Below are positions 2,659 through 40,032 of a DNA stretch of 40,243 nt, piece by piece. The stretch covers positions 1 through 40,243 of the forward strand of contig JAXHTS010000085.1 of the NCBI GenBank assembly GCA_034190085.1. Reading direction: 5' to 3'. The notes beneath the pieces were generated by a model. That model saw nothing but the letters and a program-made list of their open reading frames with translations, was not told the origin of the DNA and did not search any database. How positions within the stretch are numbered: the first letter of the stretch is position 1; each line of letters starts with the position of its first letter. A program made the translations under genes and the position numbers. This DNA is from Spirochaetota bacterium (GTDB lineage: Bacteria > Spirochaetota > UBA4802 > JAFGDQ01).

Positions 2659-5600
2659 TCATCTCCTCTCATAAAGGGCAAGGGGTATTATTCTCTCATA
2701 AAATGAATTCCCTCCATGAGTGTATCTCGGTTCATTTTTCTCCAGATAATCTCCCCTTTCAATAAAACCATGATCAGAGAGAATGCATACCTTACGATCT
2801 TTGGGGATCCCCTTCAGCAAGGGGATAAAAATCTCATCACAAAATAACAAAAGCTCCTCTGAGAGGCTAATGATTCCCTGTTTTGTTGAATGAATCTTTT
2901 CATCTAAGGAAGTAAATGATACAATTATTCGCATCTCTTCATTATTAGCAAAGATCTTCCATAACTTCTCTTTTTTATATTCTCGTTCTGCAGCGCTAAT
3001 AAACATCCATTTACTGCCTCGGGATTCAAAAATGAGTCCGCTCTCTACTAACTCCACATCAGAAAAGAGATTTCTTCGAAAGGTTAATGTGTCAGAGGGA
3101 GAAGCGCTTAGGAAAAGCCTCCTATCCTTGAGCTTGAGCAATGAATTGTCCTGAATCCTTTTTTCTAATTGTAAAAAAAGATCCACCCTGAGAGAATCGA
3201 ATATAAAAAAAATCCACATAGGGCTGGCAAGTTGATCAATAAAAAAACCTATATCCAGGTTATCATCCTTCTCCCAATTCCGAAAATTCATTTTAAAATA
3301 TTCATCACAATCACCCCTTATCTCCCTCCCCTGCCTGGTAATCTTTTCCTGAATAATATCAATTAGTATATTGTTATTTAAGGAGAGCCATCCAATCTTT
3401 TCAAACAAAAAGAGCGACTCAAAAGCTGAAAAGAGATAATCTTTATTAAAAATCTCTTTTTTACAACTCTCTTGATAATATTTTTTAAGCGAGGCATCGA
3501 GCATAAAAATTGACAAAAGAATGCTAGAATGGGGGGAATCATCGAATTGCATTCCACTGGTAATATCTTTCGTAATCTTTATCCCTTCCCTTATAATCAA
3601 CTCAATAATCCTATCACGGATAAACCTGAATCCACTAGCTGACTTGAATAGAGCATGCAGCCCCTCAGGCTTCATCTCCTTTACGCATAGAAGATTAAAC
3701 ACCTCGACTATAGTGTCCTCCCTAAAAAACTCATCCCAACAAACATCTGACTTTAATATATCTCTTCCAATCTCAATCGCTGAGGATACCTGATGGAGAT
3801 CAAGATCAATAAATAACACCCTTTTAATTATGTCAAAATGCGCTCCATTCTCAACATCATAGAGCAGCCATGCAAGGGCAAAGGCTTGTACTTTAGCTGC
3901 TTCATCATCAACACTAATAATGCGATTAAGCTCCTCCATAAGGAGAGCGGGCAACGATGTCTTTCTGTCTTCATTCAATCCCACTATTTCGAAGATCAAC
4001 TCCTCTCTTCCGTCACCCGAATCCGCTTCAATCCATTCATTGAATATCCGCATCAACTCATTCTTCCTGAACCGCCTTCCATAGATTGAGTTGTAAAAAT
4101 CCCTTATTCTCCTCCTCACAATCTTGATGTTACCCGACAACGCCCTATTTAATAGGCTAATGGTCTCCATGTTTGCAATCCGCAAAAGATCATTATCGCT
4201 TGTCCTCTTTGGGTCAAGCTCCATGATCTCCTTTAATGCGTCTCTTTTATCAACATCGCCACTGGAGAAAAGCGCCCCCACATAATTTATGATCTTACTC
4301 CTATTTGTCGCATGATTTAAAGCATGGATATACTGCTCAATACCTCGTCTGGCTATGCATTGAATCTGTGTAATATCAATCCTTAACTCACTACCCTTTA
4401 GTCTACAATCACAGTAGGGCTTATGATCAAGCTCCTTTGAGACAGACCTTCGACAGACTGACATACTCGCTTCCCTCATTAGGGTATCAATCCTTATAAG
4501 ATCATCCTTAACTGATATTGTATCAATTCTGGAAAGATTGGCCAAGGCTCTATAAGGGGGAGTAAGTTTTATCTTATCAACCTCTTCTATAATTTCAGAT
4601 GTATGAATCTTTTCATGCGCTTTAAAATAATTAAGTTTATAGTCATCCTTAAACTCGTTAAACCTATCTATTATAATCCTGATCTGATTATCAATAATCA
4701 GATTCTCTATTCTTTTAAAGCAATCTAAAAGCAGCAAAAAATCACTCTTTAGTCTCTCCTCCTCTCCAAGATAAATTTCGTGATCAGTTAAATAGGCATA
4801 TATGAAAATCAATTGATCAAGCTCATTCTGCAAAAAAAATCTGAATCGACTATCAATTTCCATGTCCTCTTGTAGATATGATTTTGTCCCCATAGACTCT
4901 ATAAGAATGTCCAGCCCCTCTCTGGAGGGTTTGCTCACCTTTATGTTTGACATAAAACCAATGAGCCTGTCATAAGAATCTCTAATCCTATCAATTTTAT
5001 TCTCCCTGAAAAGGGAGTATTCCTCCAATGTGTCAAGACTTGCCCAGCTCTCCCTTATGTTGCTCTCCTGGTTCCTCTTAAACTCAACCAACTCATCCCA
5101 TATCCTCTTTTGTGTTTGAAGATGAATATTCTTTGAACTCAAATTCAAGGTAAATGGCTCAAGCATGCTGTAATTTTCAATAAAAAGCGAGGAAATCTCT
5201 TCCCCGGTATATATAGCATCAGAGGAACCAATTACTAATGGATCCAGCCTTTCAGGTCTTAGAGATCTTCCAGATTTTTCTATGGTAATAAATCCTGAAT
5301 AGGAGAGAAAAAAGAGGTACAGGGTAAAGAGTTCCCTCTGTATCCCATACTTACCCTTTCTAAAGATCCTGTAAAGATCATTAAATGAACCCTTGGTCTG
5401 TTCAATTTCGTAAAGGAGATCCTTGATGAATATATTTTTTGAGGGATCCGGCGATATTCTATAGACATTCTGAAGGATCTTTAAAAGCCCGCTGTTCTTT
5501 AGCAATGCATCAACAGCGTTTTTCATGACCCTGCTTGCCTCAAAATTAAAGTCAACCTCCCCCCTCTCCCTGAATAAAAGGATAATCTGTCTATATGTTT

Positions 5601-7905
5601 CAATGGATTCAATCTCAAAACCAGGCATAACCCTGGAATGAGAGGGGAAGGCTGCCCTTAACAAATCCTTAATCATCAACTCTACTGTCTTCTCAAATGT
5701 GCCAGTAAGTAGCACCTCGCCTGTAGTTACGACTCCCTCCTTAATTAAGGAAAGATTCCCGGATGAATACAGCTTCTTGATAACTCGGAAAGCCTTTTCT
5801 TCAGCATCCTTCACAATATCAGTTAAAACCTTCACTCCCCTTTCCTGATTATCCTTGCTATAATTCCTTTCAAACACAACAATCCTGGCATAGGCATTGA
5901 GCAGCAAATCAAATTCTGACTCTGATGGCATCTGCGGCTTCCAAAAGACAATATTATCCTTCAGCGGAGATACAACCGCTGTACTCAATGCCGCAAATTT
6001 ATCCACAATCCCACCATCCATAACGGGGAAACCTAGAAAGAGGATAAAATCATACTCATCCTCACTCAAATATCTATCAATTGTGGCTAACTCTTCATCT
6101 GATATCTTCCCAATATCTTTAAGATAAACGCGTCCCTCCCTTAGAGTATTCTCAAAAGGAATCCCTACCACACCATCATCGCCCTTAAAATCAAACAGGG
6201 GCAAAGCTTTATCCTGAAGACGAGAGATAAAAAACCAAAGCGCCTGTTTCTCAATATTTACATTCTTTGCTATAAATTGCCTAACCTTGCTCTCAAAAAG
6301 GACTATAAGGCTTTCTTCAAATTGTAAATAAAATCTATCCCTTACTGGAGATGTGCCCCTCTCAACACCGAGATAGCCGCATTTCATCTCCATCTCCCTT
6401 AGTATCTTTTCCCTGATAAAGGTATAATTGTATTCCGGGTCAAGCTTGATCCTTGCCTCAAAAACGAGATGCGCCAGTTCCATAGCCGTTGGCCTTCCCA
6501 CACCTGGCAAAATTTGAAAGAGTAATATAAGCTTAATGACGCGAATTGCTACATTTCTGTCATCTGATTTAGTAAATATGTTCGGGATCTCCCTCTCAAA
6601 AGCAGAAAACACACTGGTCATTAGCTTATTATACTCAATACTCTCCTCAAGATTATTTCTAAAGTGATCGAATATGCGGTCAGGATATAAAAGCGTATCA
6701 GCGCTCTCATTAATGATACCTGAAAAACCTCGAATAGGATCTCCCTTGATCTCAGTATAGATAAAATCGACCATACCACGTGTCTTCGAGAAGATGCCCG
6801 TGATACCCTCAAGCATTTTGAATGTTGCGGGATGCACAGGATATATTGATCGGAAATCCTCCTTGGATATTTCCCATTCAGGAAAGGAGTCTGCAATGGA
6901 AATATAGACGTCATCAATAAAATTAATTGTCTCGTTACTCTTTAGCAAAAGCCTCCTTTCCACTAACTCTCTAAGATGAATCGATGTTAGGTTTATTCTA
7001 ACTGGATAGCGATCTTTTATACGATTAAGCCCATCAGTAGAAATTTCAGCAACCTCCTCTATCGCTTCCTGCATTGACATCACAATCCTTAAATTCGTCT
7101 CTCTTGCCCTCTCGCCCAAAAACTGTATGAATCTTATATCCTCTGAGACAAGATCGCCCCTATTTCTTGCCCTTAAGAACTCAGATAGCTCATCAATAAG
7201 CAAAAACATTCCCCCAGGATATCTTTCGCATAGCAATTCTCCAATATTCTTAAAAATATCCTGATAATCATAAAATGGTCTAAAGGGAATATTATATTCC
7301 TTTAAAAAGCCGAAAATCACATTTGACTGACCTGCCAGGGGAAGTAACCCTAAATCATCAACTTTTATGGATTTAAGGTAGTCTAAAAATTCTTCCTCTA
7401 TGTTTGGCAAAATAATCTTTTCAAAATCAGAGACAACCCTCTCAGCATCCCATACAGACTCCCCTATTCCATCCCTCTGTAGAGCCGCAGATATCTTCTC
7501 AGCCACAATCTCCGCAAGGCTGTTTGAAACGGAGTAGTCGGTTAGGGTAATAGAAACCGGAAATACTCGTTTATCAATTAGATCGGTCTTATAAGTCGCA
7601 ATTTCCGGGCTCGCCCTCCTAATAGTATCCATCATCTGCGGAAATTTGAGGAGCGCAGAGAGAAATGCAAGCAGATGACTCTTCCCAGAACCATAGTTCC
7701 CCTTTATTATAAAACCGCATCCCTCACCCTTTCGCACTGTGAATAGGATAGCTTCAAGGGCGCGCAAAATATCCTCGGTTATAACAAAGGATAACACAAT
7801 CCTCTTGTGAAGTTCCTCCTCGCTCATGCCTTCAGCCGCTGAAACCTGTATTACCGTTTCCACTTCCGGCACTTCTATTATGTCACAAATTCTCCTCATC
7901 CTCAA
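2659..7905 (-). CDS. giant BrxC/PglY-like ATPase fused to a C-terminal PglZ-type phosphatase domain
   Basis: A 1748-residue protein encoded in one uninterrupted frame. Residues 69-76 form a Walker A motif (GNYGSGKS) and 234-239 a Walker B (FLLIDE). The surrounding sequence (RIVMSMQEAIEEV, then LRELVERRLLLKS) resembles BrxC/PglY and DUF6079-type ATPases of BREX/Pgl phage defence. A long, mostly helical middle with a CDC motif near residue 1165 follows. The last ~200 residues look like a PglZ domain of the alkaline-phosphatase superfamily: FDSLRVD at 1569-1575 (compare the DxLRyd signature), a PSDTLTFRR stretch in place of the PTxT nucleophile region, then SDHG (Asp1711, His1712) and YTHGG (His1730), as expected for metal ligands. 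It overlaps the upstream TPR gene by 23 bases. The TTG at 7905 or the ATG at 7899 could be the start. No other BREX gene is in the window; the defence role is inferred. Confidence 0.8.
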   Translation of the reverse strand: MRMRRICDIIEVPEVETVIQVSAAEGMSEEELHKRIVLSFVITEDILRALEAILFTVRKGEGCGFIIKGNYGSGKSHLLAFLSALLKFPQMMDTIRRASPEIATYKTDLIDKRVFPVSITLTDYSVSNSLAEIVAEKISAALQRDGIGESVWDAERVVSDFEKIILPNIEEEFLDYLKSIKVDDLGLLPLAGQSNVIFGFLKEYNIPFRPFYDYQDIFKNIGELLCERYPGGMFLLIDELSEFLRARNRGDLVSEDIRFIQFLGERARETNLRIVMSMQEAIEEVAEISTDGLNRIKDRYPVRINLTSIHLRELVERRLLLKSNETINFIDDVYISIADSFPEWEISKEDFRSIYPVHPATFKMLEGITGIFSKTRGMVDFIYTEIKGDPIRGFSGIINESADTLLYPDRIFDHFRNNLEESIEYNKLMTSVFSAFEREIPNIFTKSDDRNVAIRVIKLILLFQILPGVGRPTAMELAHLVFEARIKLDPEYNYTFIREKILREMEMKCGYLGVERGTSPVRDRFYLQFEESLIVLFESKVRQFIAKNVNIEKQALWFFISRLQDKALPLFDFKGDDGVVGIPFENTLREGRVYLKDIGKISDEELATIDRYLSEDEYDFILFLGFPVMDGGIVDKFAALSTAVVSPLKDNIVFWKPQMPSESEFDLLLNAYARIVVFERNYSKDNQERGVKVLTDIVKDAEEKAFRVIKKLYSSGNLSLIKEGVVTTGEVLLTGTFEKTVELMIKDLLRAAFPSHSRVMPGFEIESIETYRQIILLFRERGEVDFNFEASRVMKNAVDALLKNSGLLKILQNVYRISPDPSKNIFIKDLLYEIEQTKGSFNDLYRIFRKGKYGIQRELFTLYLFFLSYSGFITIEKSGRSLRPERLDPLVIGSSDAIYTGEEISSLFIENYSMLEPFTLNLSSKNIHLQTQKRIWDELVEFKRNQESNIRESWASLDTLEEYSLFRENKIDRIRDSYDRLIGFMSNIKVSKPSREGLDILIESMGTKSYLQEDMEIDSRFRFFLQNELDQLIFIYAYLTDHEIYLGEEERLKSDFLLLLDCFKRIENLIIDNQIRIIIDRFNEFKDDYKLNYFKAHEKIHTSEIIEEVDKIKLTPPYRALANLSRIDTISVKDDLIRIDTLMREASMSVCRRSVSKELDHKPYCDCRLKGSELRIDITQIQCIARRGIEQYIHALNHATNRSKIINYVGALFSSGDVDKRDALKEIMELDPKRTSDNDLLRIANMETISLLNRALSGNIKIVRRRIRDFYNSIYGRRFRKNELMRIFNEWIEADSGDGREELIFEIVGLNEDRKTSLPALLMEELNRIISVDDEAAKVQAFALAWLLYDVENGAHFDIIKRVLFIDLDLHQVSSAIEIGRDILKSDVCWDEFFREDTIVEVFNLLCVKEMKPEGLHALFKSASGFRFIRDRIIELIIREGIKITKDITSGMQFDDSPHSSILLSIFMLDASLKKYYQESCKKEIFNKDYLFSAFESLFLFEKIGWLSLNNNILIDIIQEKITRQGREIRGDCDEYFKMNFRNWEKDDNLDIGFFIDQLASPMWIFFIFDSLRVDLFLQLEKRIQDNSLLKLKDRRLFLSASPSDTLTFRRNLFSDVELVESGLIFESRGSKWMFISAAEREYKKEKLWKIFANNEEMRIIVSFTSLDEKIHSTKQGIISLSEELLLFCDEIFIPLLKGIPKDRKVCILSDHGFIERGDYLEKNEPRYTHGGNSFYERIIPLALYERR

Positions 7906-8923
7906 TCTCTTTGCCTAATTTCTTAATTCTACTCCATAGATTAGCGTATTGTCCGGATCCTTCAGCAAGCTGAAGCATCCGTTGTATTAGCTCCTTTTTA
8001 TCATTTATTGATTTAGCTGAGGCAATAATAGTAGAAAGGAAGATGTTGTCCCTAAAGTTGGGATCTGACAGACTGATGAAGATATTAAAGGCCCTGGTGT
8101 ATTCCTTCATCCTGTAATATAAGTAGGCAAGACCCCTTTGATTAAACTCGCTTCCATCAATAGAGATCAATCTTTTATATATCTCTACTGCCTCATCAAA
8201 CCGTCCCTCACCCTTTAAGCTATCCGCGAATAGCTTCAGGAGATGAGGATTTTCATCATCAGATATATCCATTAACTCCTGAATATTTGATGAACCCAAA
8301 TTCCTTTCCCTTAGTCTTAGAGACAACTTCTGTGAATAATAGAATTTGTTATTCTGATCGAGCTGTAGGGCTCTATTTATTGCCTCTTCAGCCCTATCTA
8401 GATCTGAAAGATTATCATAGATCTGAAAAAGAAGATAATGGATATCAGCCCTATCAGGGAATTTATCTCTTCCAATGATTGCATATTCCAAGGCTTTTAT
8501 AAGGTCATTCTTGAGATAATAGGTCCTAGCGATTCTCTTTATTAAAAAGTAATCATTATCATTTCGTTTGATAATGTCAAGGAATAACGTCAGCGCATCA
8601 TCATATCTCCCCCTTTTAGCCAATATATCGCCCTTTCTCTTTATGGCATATATGCTATCAGGTTCACCTTTTAATATTAACTCCACATTCTTTTCTGCAT
8701 CATCAAGTCTTTCCATCTTGATATATAAATCAATTAAAAGCCCAATAATATATGGATCAGAGGGATTCATCTCCAGAGCCTCGAAGAGAACACCTTCTGC
8801 CTCACGATAATTTTTATTTCCAATAAGCCCCTTTGCGATATTTATTATCTCTTTTTGAGTGGTCATATATTTATCTGCAGTATTATACGACTTGTTCTGC
8901 AATATTGCTCTCAGATCACCCAC
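7883..8923 (-). CDS. TPR-repeat protein translated ahead of the ATPase-PglZ gene
   Basis: A 346-residue protein made almost entirely of tetratricopeptide repeats, about seven to eight helix pairs from residue ~30 to ~310. Examples are YREAEGVLFEALEMNPSDP, RYDDALTLFLDIIKRND and RFDEAVEIYKRLISIDG. There is no signal peptide or membrane segment, so it is probably a cytoplasmic protein-protein adaptor. Its 3' end overlaps the start of the giant ATPase gene by 23 bases, strongly suggesting translational coupling and a shared complex. The longest reading starts at GTG 8923; an ATG 19 codons further in (8866) is an alternative, and neither has a clear ribosome binding site. A role as a partner or sensor for the ATPase-PglZ protein is inference from gene order. 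Confidence 0.8.
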   Translation of the reverse strand: MGDLRAILQNKSYNTADKYMTTQKEIINIAKGLIGNKNYREAEGVLFEALEMNPSDPYIIGLLIDLYIKMERLDDAEKNVELILKGEPDSIYAIKRKGDILAKRGRYDDALTLFLDIIKRNDNDYFLIKRIARTYYLKNDLIKALEYAIIGRDKFPDRADIHYLLFQIYDNLSDLDRAEEAINRALQLDQNNKFYYSQKLSLRLRERNLGSSNIQELMDISDDENPHLLKLFADSLKGEGRFDEAVEIYKRLISIDGSEFNQRGLAYLYYRMKEYTRAFNIFISLSDPNFRDNIFLSTIIASAKSINDKKELIQRMLQLAEGSGQYANLWSRIKKLGKEIEDEENL

Positions 8924-9818: not shown

Positions 9819-10835
9819 TCACTCAACATATTTTTCCCGTTCCTTCCTGATGTTTATCATGCCATTGTCATTTAGGCTTATCATGATTGATGCAATCATA
9901 TGCCTGGCATCCTTTATTTCAGCCAAGCTCAAAGGACCCATGTTGAACATATCGGATAGAACATCTGTTGCCCTATTTCTGCTCATATTTCTCAAAAACT
10001 TGAATCTGATCTCATCTCCCGCCCCTTTGAGCGCCTTTGAAATGATATGATCATCATTCACCTCATCAATGAGTATTTGAACCTCCTGATGGCTCAGGTT
10101 TACAACGTTTTCAAAGGAAAATATTCTTTCTCTAATATTATCAGCGATCTGTGGAATTGTGGTATCAAAGTACTCCATTAATCTCTTTTCCTGATCAAGA
10201 CTCATGCGATTTAATATATCAACAATTGCATTCACGCCATCTGGCGCTTCATAGTTGTTGCTAGACTCTATAAGCTTTTCGTACTTCTTCTTGATAAACC
10301 GCACGATTTCAAGAACAGCTTCAGGGGATGTTTTCCCCAGTCTGGCCATCCTCTTTGAAACCTCTTTTGCAATATACGGTTGAAACCTATTCAGAACCTC
10401 AGCGGATTTATGTGGAGATAAATAAGCAAGGGTAACAGTTATGGTTTGCAGATGTTCGTTTTCTAAAAACGATGCTAATATTTCTGAATCGACGTCCCTT
10501 AGAAAGGCGAAACCCCTCTCAAGATCCTTTCTCGTCAGCTTAGTGAACACCTCCTCCGCTTTCTCTTCACCAAATGCCGACACAAGCAGATTTCGTGCTA
10601 CAGTTTCACCACCAGACAGGGTTCCCTGATTTCTCTTAAATTCTAGCAGAAACTCGCCTATCATCTCCTCCTTCTCTTCAATTGACAAGCTATCCACTTT
10701 GGCTATCTCTACAACAATCTTCCTTATGCTATCCTCGTCAAGATATTTCAACACCCTTGAAGCAGCATCAGGACCAATGGCAATCAGGAGAGAAGCGACC
10801 TTCTCCATGCCTGTCATCTGATCGATTGACTTCAT
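9819..10835 (-). CDS. fliG: flagellar motor switch protein FliG
   Basis: A C-ring rotor protein that couples to the stators and sets rotation direction. It is 338 residues, the usual length. Hallmarks visible are the N-terminal KVASLLIAIGPDAASRVLKYL segment, the middle-domain ENEHLQ at residues 126-130 (EHPQ in enteric FliG, with Leu for Pro), the hinge-like RIFSFENVV (compare MFVFEDI) and the C-terminal GPLSLAEIKDARHMI, which contains the charged stator-facing helix. Its ATG overlaps the stop of the rnfB-like gene by one base (TAATG), so the two are translationally coupled. No other flagellar gene is adjacent, so this may be one of several fliG copies, as is common in spirochetes; that cannot be tested here. 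Confidence 0.95.
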   Translation of the reverse strand: MKSIDQMTGMEKVASLLIAIGPDAASRVLKYLDEDSIRKIVVEIAKVDSLSIEEKEEMIGEFLLEFKRNQGTLSGGETVARNLLVSAFGEEKAEEVFTKLTRKDLERGFAFLRDVDSEILASFLENEHLQTITVTLAYLSPHKSAEVLNRFQPYIAKEVSKRMARLGKTSPEAVLEIVRFIKKKYEKLIESSNNYEAPDGVNAIVDILNRMSLDQEKRLMEYFDTTIPQIADNIRERIFSFENVVNLSHQEVQILIDEVNDDHIISKALKGAGDEIRFKFLRNMSRNRATDVLSDMFNMGPLSLAEIKDARHMIASIMISLNDNGMINIRKEREKYVE

Positions 10836-38934: not shown

Positions 38935-40032
38935 ATGGTTAATGATAACTACATTGAAGCCAAATTTATAATAAGATTGAACCGCTTTGTAGGTATAGTA
39001 GATATTGATGGCAATCATTGTTCTGTTTACATACCGAATACCGGCAGGCTTTCTGAATTGCTGCACCCTGGAAGGAGAGTAATGCTAATACCCTCTTCAG
39101 GCAAACACCCATACAGACTACAGTATGTGATATACAAGGACAAGCCAATATTTATAGATTCAATAACCAGCAATCGTATATTCTACGACCTCCTCACAGA
39201 GAAGAGGGTCCCAATGCAAGGGGACTATGATTCAATTACCAGAGAACCATGCTTTAGAGATCATCGATTCGATTTTTCTCTATCCGAAAACTTATCAGGG
39301 GACAGGGATAAACTCTTTATTGAGTTAAAATCAGTTACCCTGGCATGGGACAATACAGCTTCCTTCCCCGATGCACCTACCATCAGGGGTGTGGAACATA
39401 TCAGGGCATTATCCCATAGCGGGAAGGGAATGCTTGTCTTCCTTATCTTTCATAGCAATATTGACTATTTTATTCCAAACTATCATACTGACTTTGAATT
39501 CTATAAAACACTGGTGGATCATAAAGAGAATATTCAAATATCTGCTTTCTCTGTAGAATATGGGGTTAATCTTGATATTAATGGATTAAAGGAGGTTGAA
39601 ATCATATTACCCCATGTTAAGCCCTCAGGCTCTTATCTCCTCATCTATAGCAACTCAAGTTGTAGGATTGCGGATGTGGGGCATTTAGGAGGAATATCCT
39701 TTCCAGAGGGATTTTACATATATGTTGGTAGCGGAAAAAAGAATCTCTTCAAAAGGATAGAATACCACAGAAGAAATAGCGTAAAAAAACACTGGCATGT
39801 GGATTATATAAAAAATCATTTCAAACTTATTATGGATATTCCAATCGTAACTCATAGAGATATTGAATGCATTCTTGCTGAAAGGATAATAGAATTAGGA
39901 GGGAAGGGAATAAAGGGATTTGGCTCATCCGATTGCAGATGTAATAGTCACTTCTTTTTCTTTGCAAGCAATCCCCTATACAGCGAAGACTTCTGGGATA
40001 TGATTCTTGAAGAAAGGCTGTCAATTCTTTAG
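38935..40032 (+). CDS. SfsA nuclease fused to a DUF123 (GIY-YIG-like) domain
   Basis: A 365-residue fusion. Residues 1-~225 match the SfsA DNA/RNA-nuclease family: FIIRLNRFVGIVDIDGNHCSVYIPNTGRLSELLHPG at the start, LFIELKSVTLAWDNTASFPDAPTIRGVEHI in the nuclease core (with a D-x-n-x-E-x-K pattern) and VFLIFHSNIDYFIPN. Residues ~228-350 look like DUF123, a GIY-YIG-type module: GSYLLIYSNSSCRIADVG, EGFYIYVGSGKKNLFKRIEYHRR and KHWHVDYI, ending GFGSSDCRCNSHFFFF. Both halves suggest a nucleic-acid enzyme. The function of either domain in vivo is not firmly known. The ATG at 38935 has no visible ribosome binding site. Confidence 0.88.
   Translation: MVNDNYIEAKFIIRLNRFVGIVDIDGNHCSVYIPNTGRLSELLHPGRRVMLIPSSGKHPYRLQYVIYKDKPIFIDSITSNRIFYDLLTEKRVPMQGDYDSITREPCFRDHRFDFSLSENLSGDRDKLFIELKSVTLAWDNTASFPDAPTIRGVEHIRALSHSGKGMLVFLIFHSNIDYFIPNYHTDFEFYKTLVDHKENIQISAFSVEYGVNLDINGLKEVEIILPHVKPSGSYLLIYSNSSCRIADVGHLGGISFPEGFYIYVGSGKKNLFKRIEYHRRNSVKKHWHVDYIKNHFKLIMDIPIVTHRDIECILAERIIELGGKGIKGFGSSDCRCNSHFFFFASNPLYSEDFWDMILEERLSIL

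Follow-up and report, generated by a model that had tools for sequence, protein, structure and literature searches.

Bacteriophage exclusion (BREX) systems have a core of two separate chains, the AAA+ ATPase BrxC (PglY) and PglZ. With ATP, BrxC binds DNA, multimerizes, and joins PglZ via BrxB (PMC13326643), and the PglZ of type 1 reportedly nicks DNA in a metal-dependent manner (PMC12839542). BREX PglZ has an alpha/beta domain at its N-terminus (PMC12839542), and residues 1-98 of PglZ have been crystallized with BrxC and BrxB (9zll; PMC13326643). How BrxC and PglZ cooperate is unsettled, with BrxB thought to bridge the two proteins. Related parts are found in PorX, which combines a PglZ fold with a receiver domain and reportedly acts on cyclic and linear oligonucleotides (PMC12839542), in SspC, the DUF6079-type ATPase of Ssp phosphorothioate systems and type-4 BREX, and in a HerA/FtsK-centered, BREX-related capture system, where DUF6079 and PglZ are separate genes in a set of seven components that also has HerA/FtsK, DUF4007, and TGT (PMC12839542). 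Here we describe a gene from a 40,243-nucleotide stretch of a Spirochaetota bacterium (contig JAXHTS010000085.1, hereafter the window), in which a BrxC-type ATPase and a PglZ domain are fused in one chain. A natural single chain that dispenses with BrxB and PglX would represent this machine at its simplest, and it would offer a direct test of whether a BrxC-PglZ core is able to restrict or process DNA in the absence of methylation.

The fusion gene (2659-7905) is on the minus strand, as are all its features given below, and it runs from 7905 to 2659 as a single open frame of 1748 residues. The start codon is TTG 7905 or, equally possibly, ATG 7899, two codons further inside. The frame contains a full-length BrxC/PglY-type ATPase, a helical linker, and a PglZ domain. 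The original prediction, made from the sequence of the window, had proposed a BrxC-PglZ fusion in this single frame on the basis of Walker A (69-76), Walker B (234-239), FDSLRVD (1569-1575), SDHG (1710-1713), and THGG (1729-1732). The frame is intact, the motifs are located at these residues, with GSGKS at 72-76 and LLIDE at 235-239, and family profiles, fold, and conservation all support the fusion, which is of a conserved kind and no accident. Chance occurrence of the motifs can be rejected, as both catalytic centers are kept across 43 aligned relatives wherever the PglZ domain is present.

The ATPase part covers residues 1 to ~1300 (4006-7905) and is BrxC/PglY-like (DUF6079) according to Pfam, PADLOC, and Foldseek. 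Residues 213-458 match Pfam DUF6079 with an E-value of 6e-42, above the cut-off, and the PADLOC BrxC model matches the fusion with an E-value of 9e-30; the NCBIfam BREX_BrxC model gives 65.7 bits, far under its cut-off of 400. The ATPase was originally placed within residues 1-600. Its BrxC identity holds, and its extent has to be revised: the fusion contains the whole of BrxC, because the DUF6079 match in a relative (L041) reaches profile position 1223 of 1238. The AlphaFold2 model of residues 2-1199 has a predicted local distance difference test score (pLDDT) of 83.6 and a predicted template modeling score (pTM) of 0.50, so the placement of domains in this model is uncertain. Foldseek with this model returns the BrxC structures 9zdx and 9zll first, followed by ORC/Cdc6 proteins. 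In an alignment of 43 proteins along their length, G69, G72, G74, K75, and S76 of Walker A (GNYGSGKS, residues 69-76, 7678-7701) and L236-E239 of Walker B (residues 235-239, 7189-7203) are invariant, which includes D238 and E239. D298 and R299 are invariant as well, and they belong to a K297-D298-R299 segment (7009-7017), kept in 42-43 of the 43 proteins, that may be the arginine-finger region. Four further residues of the ATPase part, H1097, C1151, C1165, and C1167 (4405-4617), are invariant in a 42-row alignment and form a family-specific site, probably for zinc. The CxC of this site is missing from three complete BrxC proteins of the same phylum, and PxCxC is present in two of the four stand-alone BrxC-like proteins of Halanaerobiales.

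The linker (residues ~1335-1559, 3229-3903) is all helical in the AlphaFold2 model and leads to the PglZ domain of the alkaline-phosphatase superfamily (residues ~1560-1748, 2662-3228). No Pfam, PADLOC, or NCBIfam hidden Markov model (HMM) detects PglZ in the window copy alone. A Pfam match at the C-terminus, expected from the original prediction, was not obtained with the last 313 residues alone, and phmmer of the window protein against the PDB gave no match. A search with this sequence alone would thus have refuted the prediction by the first criterion named with it. As single-sequence HMM searches are blind to this domain, family evidence is needed for its identity. Pfam PF08665 matches 11 of 43 family C-termini at E<0.01 (best 1.8e-4), and alignment of the family profile with stand-alone PglZ proteins in hhalign gives 99.2 % and an E-value of 8.8e-20 in a one-template search. 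The AlphaFold2 model of residues 1329-1748 (pLDDT 83.9, pTM 0.85) has PorX (E 3e-11) and then Acinetobacter BREX PglZ (E 1e-7) as its top Foldseek matches, in agreement with the alkaline-phosphatase-type fold that had been proposed for the C-terminus, and a family profile search of PDB sequences recovers the same molecules. Ahead of the PglZ core this model consists of helices only, so the alpha/beta domain at the N-terminus of BREX PglZ is not seen in the fusion.

The active-site residues of the PglZ domain are well conserved. D1668, H1672, D1711, H1712, G1713, H1730, and E1737 are invariant in the 43 C-termini, and D1570, D1575, P1603, and G1731 are nearly so. D1570 in FDSLRVD (3181-3201), a metal ligand by homology, is present in 39 of the 40 rows having the domain. 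D1668 and H1672 make up a D-x3-H metal motif (2890-2904) absent from the original list of motifs, whereas D1711, H1712, and G1713 belong to SDHG (2767-2778) and H1730 to THGG (2710-2721). In PSDT (residues 1603-1606, 3088-3099), T1606 aligns with Thr271, the nucleophile of PorX (structure 8thp is the T271V mutant); in a clade of Spirochaetota and Planctomycetota the equivalent threonine is located one residue earlier.

With the window protein alone, pattern scans found no relatives in genomes or viral contigs. The first relative, G060:C94, came from a search of the phylum; it has 1517+ residues and ~26 % identity over 1100. A scan with the alignment of these two proteins, covering genomes from 84,980 species, gave 59 loci, including the contig of G060:C94 itself (L070). 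The hosts belong to about a dozen phyla, including Bacillota (Halanaerobiales and others), Spirochaetota, Thermodesulfobacteriota, Myxococcota, Planctomycetota, Acidobacteriota, Nitrospirota, Caldifarciminota, Fibrobacterota, and Actinomycetota. With the window and G060 counted, 47 copies have a complete 3' end, and the PglZ-like DHG...H tail is found in 43 of them. The fusion therefore recurs among homologues and is the normal architecture of the family. In L069 (9995-15513) the ATPase and PglZ are split over two neighboring frames, and three complete frames (L047, L060, and L077) are without PglZ; these may have arisen by later splitting or loss, or may reflect errors in sequencing. Such exceptions, together with the origin of most copies from metagenome bins, would fit two separate genes joined by an assembly or frameshift artefact. 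We regard this explanation as having a negligible chance of being right, and reject an assembly-made fusion, as the same join is repeated in 43 copies of independent assemblies, including the isolate Moorella stamsii DSM 26217, with no internal stop and with conserved catalytic residues. In a tree, the ATPase parts of the family are set apart from 12 stand-alone BrxC proteins in 78 % of bootstrap trees, which is consistent with a single origin of the family and is no proof of it.

The fusion has a conserved partner on which the original prediction was silent. A gene for a tetratricopeptide repeat (TPR) protein of 346 residues, recognized by Pfam (7883-8923, minus strand), overlaps the start of the fusion gene by 23 nucleotides. 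Among the 52 loci with at least 700 nucleotides upstream, 43 have a co-directional upstream TPR relative, 40 by direct calls and three (L066, L072, and L079) judged from coordinates, where the TPR gene overlaps an over-long start call of the fusion. The TPR gene is upstream on the opposite strand in L086, L087, and L090. The two genes usually overlap, most commonly by 4 nucleotides. Helicase genes adjoin the pair at some loci. A RecQ gene is inserted between the TPR and fusion genes in two Desulfobacteraceae (L051:1213-3441 and L054:7325-9655), and a RecD2-type gene directly follows the fusion, overlapping it or within 20 nucleotides, in six Spirochaetota loci (L067, L073, L076, L078, L080, and L082). 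SNF2 helicases adjoin the pair more or less closely in L051, L071, and L095, and on the opposite strand in L070; these neighbors of ~900 residues had been considered as DNA polymerase I, an assignment we rejected. Most loci, including the window copy, have no repair helicase beside the fusion.

The window genome is 96 % complete. HMM searches of this genome find no PglX (NF033452; other methyltransferase families were not searched genome-wide) and no BrxL (TIGR02688), extending the absence noted earlier for the window, and they find no stand-alone PglZ and no second DUF6079. BrxA and BrxB were not recognized among the window frames, with no genome-wide HMM search made for them. BREX systems have PglX/BrxX in all types but type 4, and BrxL in types 1 and 4. 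The fusion is built of BREX core parts, namely a PglZ and a complete AAA+ ATPase of the BrxC type, with active-site residues conserved in both, and its BREX membership fails on PglX. It also differs from BREX in joining the two parts in one chain, in lacking BrxL and the N-terminal domain of PglZ, and in having a TPR partner and the extra His/Cys3 site. PorX shares with the fusion the PglZ fold, the preceding helices, the nucleophile threonine, and the metal ligands. However, PorX has no ATPase, whereas the fusion has an AAA+ N-terminus and no receiver domain, and membership in the PorX group is rejected on this basis. The ATPase of SspC is related to that of the fusion, but SspC models score far below BrxC models (E 6e-12 versus 9e-30); as no phosphorothioation genes were recognized in the window or recur near relatives, we reject membership in Ssp or type-4 BREX. 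Like the fusion, the HerA/FtsK-centered system has DUF6079 and PglZ without the canonical BREX set (PMC12839542). Genes for HerA/FtsK or TGT do not recur in the neighborhood of the fusion, and HerA and TGT were not recognized in the window and not searched genome-wide. A 2026 BREX census has no occurrence of "TPR", and those of its passages on fusions that were covered here describe no BrxC-PglZ fusion. DUF6079 is mentioned in only two papers of the literature searched. We found no earlier description of such a fusion in the literature searched, which mostly leaves out subscription papers and preprints, so that a prior mention is possible. A defense library reports the fusion merely as partial BrxC. 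Together with the TPR gene, the fusion looks like an undescribed, stripped-down relative of BREX.

Sequence, fold, and conservation demonstrate a BrxC-type ATPase and PglZ in one chain, with complete active-site residues, and a conserved TPR gene overlapping it. We lean, with modest confidence, toward a two-gene, BREX-derived, methylation-independent module that would act most likely against phage or other invading DNA. The ORC-like ATPase would bind DNA and oligomerize with ATP, as BrxC does, and the covalent linkage would replace the BrxB bridge between ATPase and PglZ. The fused PglZ may be a metal-dependent nuclease or phosphodiesterase acting on the captured DNA, and the TPR protein may take the place of BrxB as an adaptor or trigger that senses a protein signal. 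Invading DNA would be restricted without self-methylation. Lacking a methyltransferase, the module must protect self by a means besides methylation, and a TPR-gated trigger, for example, could spare self DNA. This module is favored by the conservation of the fusion and both active centers over about a dozen phyla, and of the TPR partner in most loci, by the structural closeness of the ATPase to BrxC and of the PglZ part to PorX and BREX PglZ, and by the lack of PglX and BrxL in the genome. Patchy spread favors it too. Of 393 genomes from the phylum covered by a profile search, only two, the window genome and G060, have the fusion, and in Halanaerobiales (the order of G396) the fusion is found in ~10 of 38. 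Next to the window locus there is an SLT-FliG-RnfB-HATPase-TetR-radical SAM block, which seven related genomes preserve more or less completely; in all seven the TPR-fusion pair is absent from the examined stretch next to this block. The pair was therefore gained in the window genome or repeatedly lost.

Several observations weigh against defense. The two-sequence alignment scan of viral contigs gave no match, no near-full-length copy was found in phages, and plasmid matches are partial, at 21-32 % identity and with less than 80 % of the query covered. Among 136 proteins encoded within 10 kb of the relatives, considered without control neighborhoods, most are metabolic or housekeeping and few are for defense; PADLOC identifies among them apparently one restriction-modification locus, plus RecD-like and candidate families. 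The family tree groups by host phylum (15 changes versus 25.7 when shuffled), with the window copy on a long branch apart from other Spirochaetota. RecD2, RecQ, or SNF2 beside some loci is compatible with repair. These observations support a genome-maintenance machine repurposed from BREX, in which the ATPase and TPR protein would be loaded where DNA is damaged or stalled, for PglZ to trim or nick it with a repair helicase. We consider this explanation unlikely but serious: the family is very patchy, close relatives that keep the flanks lack it, helicases adjoin only a minority of loci, and BREX types use helicases too (PMC12839542). The broader proposal of a chromosomal BREX descendant, widespread and free of methylation, in which TPR and BrxC-PglZ, joined in some lineages by RecD2, RecQ, or SNF2, would serve as a DNA surveillance or repair nuclease, not in phage defense, appears to us rather doubtful. 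A signaling enzyme, whose PglZ part, controlled by the ATPase and the TPR protein, would hydrolyze a nucleotide messenger, is suggested by PorX as the closest solved fold with reported activity on oligonucleotides (PMC12839542); it is improbable, as a complete BrxC-like ATPase is attached, the receiver domain is absent, and no nucleotide cyclase recurs among the neighbors. We favor the defense module because of its patchiness and BREX ancestry, and leave a maintenance role open because of the repair helicases, quiet neighborhoods, and phylum clustering. The original prediction had offered a methylation-independent BREX relative or a module with a cellular role; a fusion without the PglX methyltransferase is borne out, and the evidence on its role points both ways.

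Stand-alone DUF6079 ATPases of ~1300 residues are found in operons of Halanaerobiales (L130:9101-14720, L131:2042-8978, L128, and L129). Two genes of ~260-300 residues lie upstream of the ATPase, one weakly BrxA-like and one unmatched, with a WYL regulator further upstream in L131, and there is no obvious methyltransferase within the stretch read. In the window, a FliG paralogue (9819-10835) adjoins an RnfB-like gene; a second FliG is present elsewhere in the genome, and both recur in relatives. The window also encodes, at 38935-40032, a protein that by reading alone is SfsA-like with a GIY-YIG-like C-terminus.
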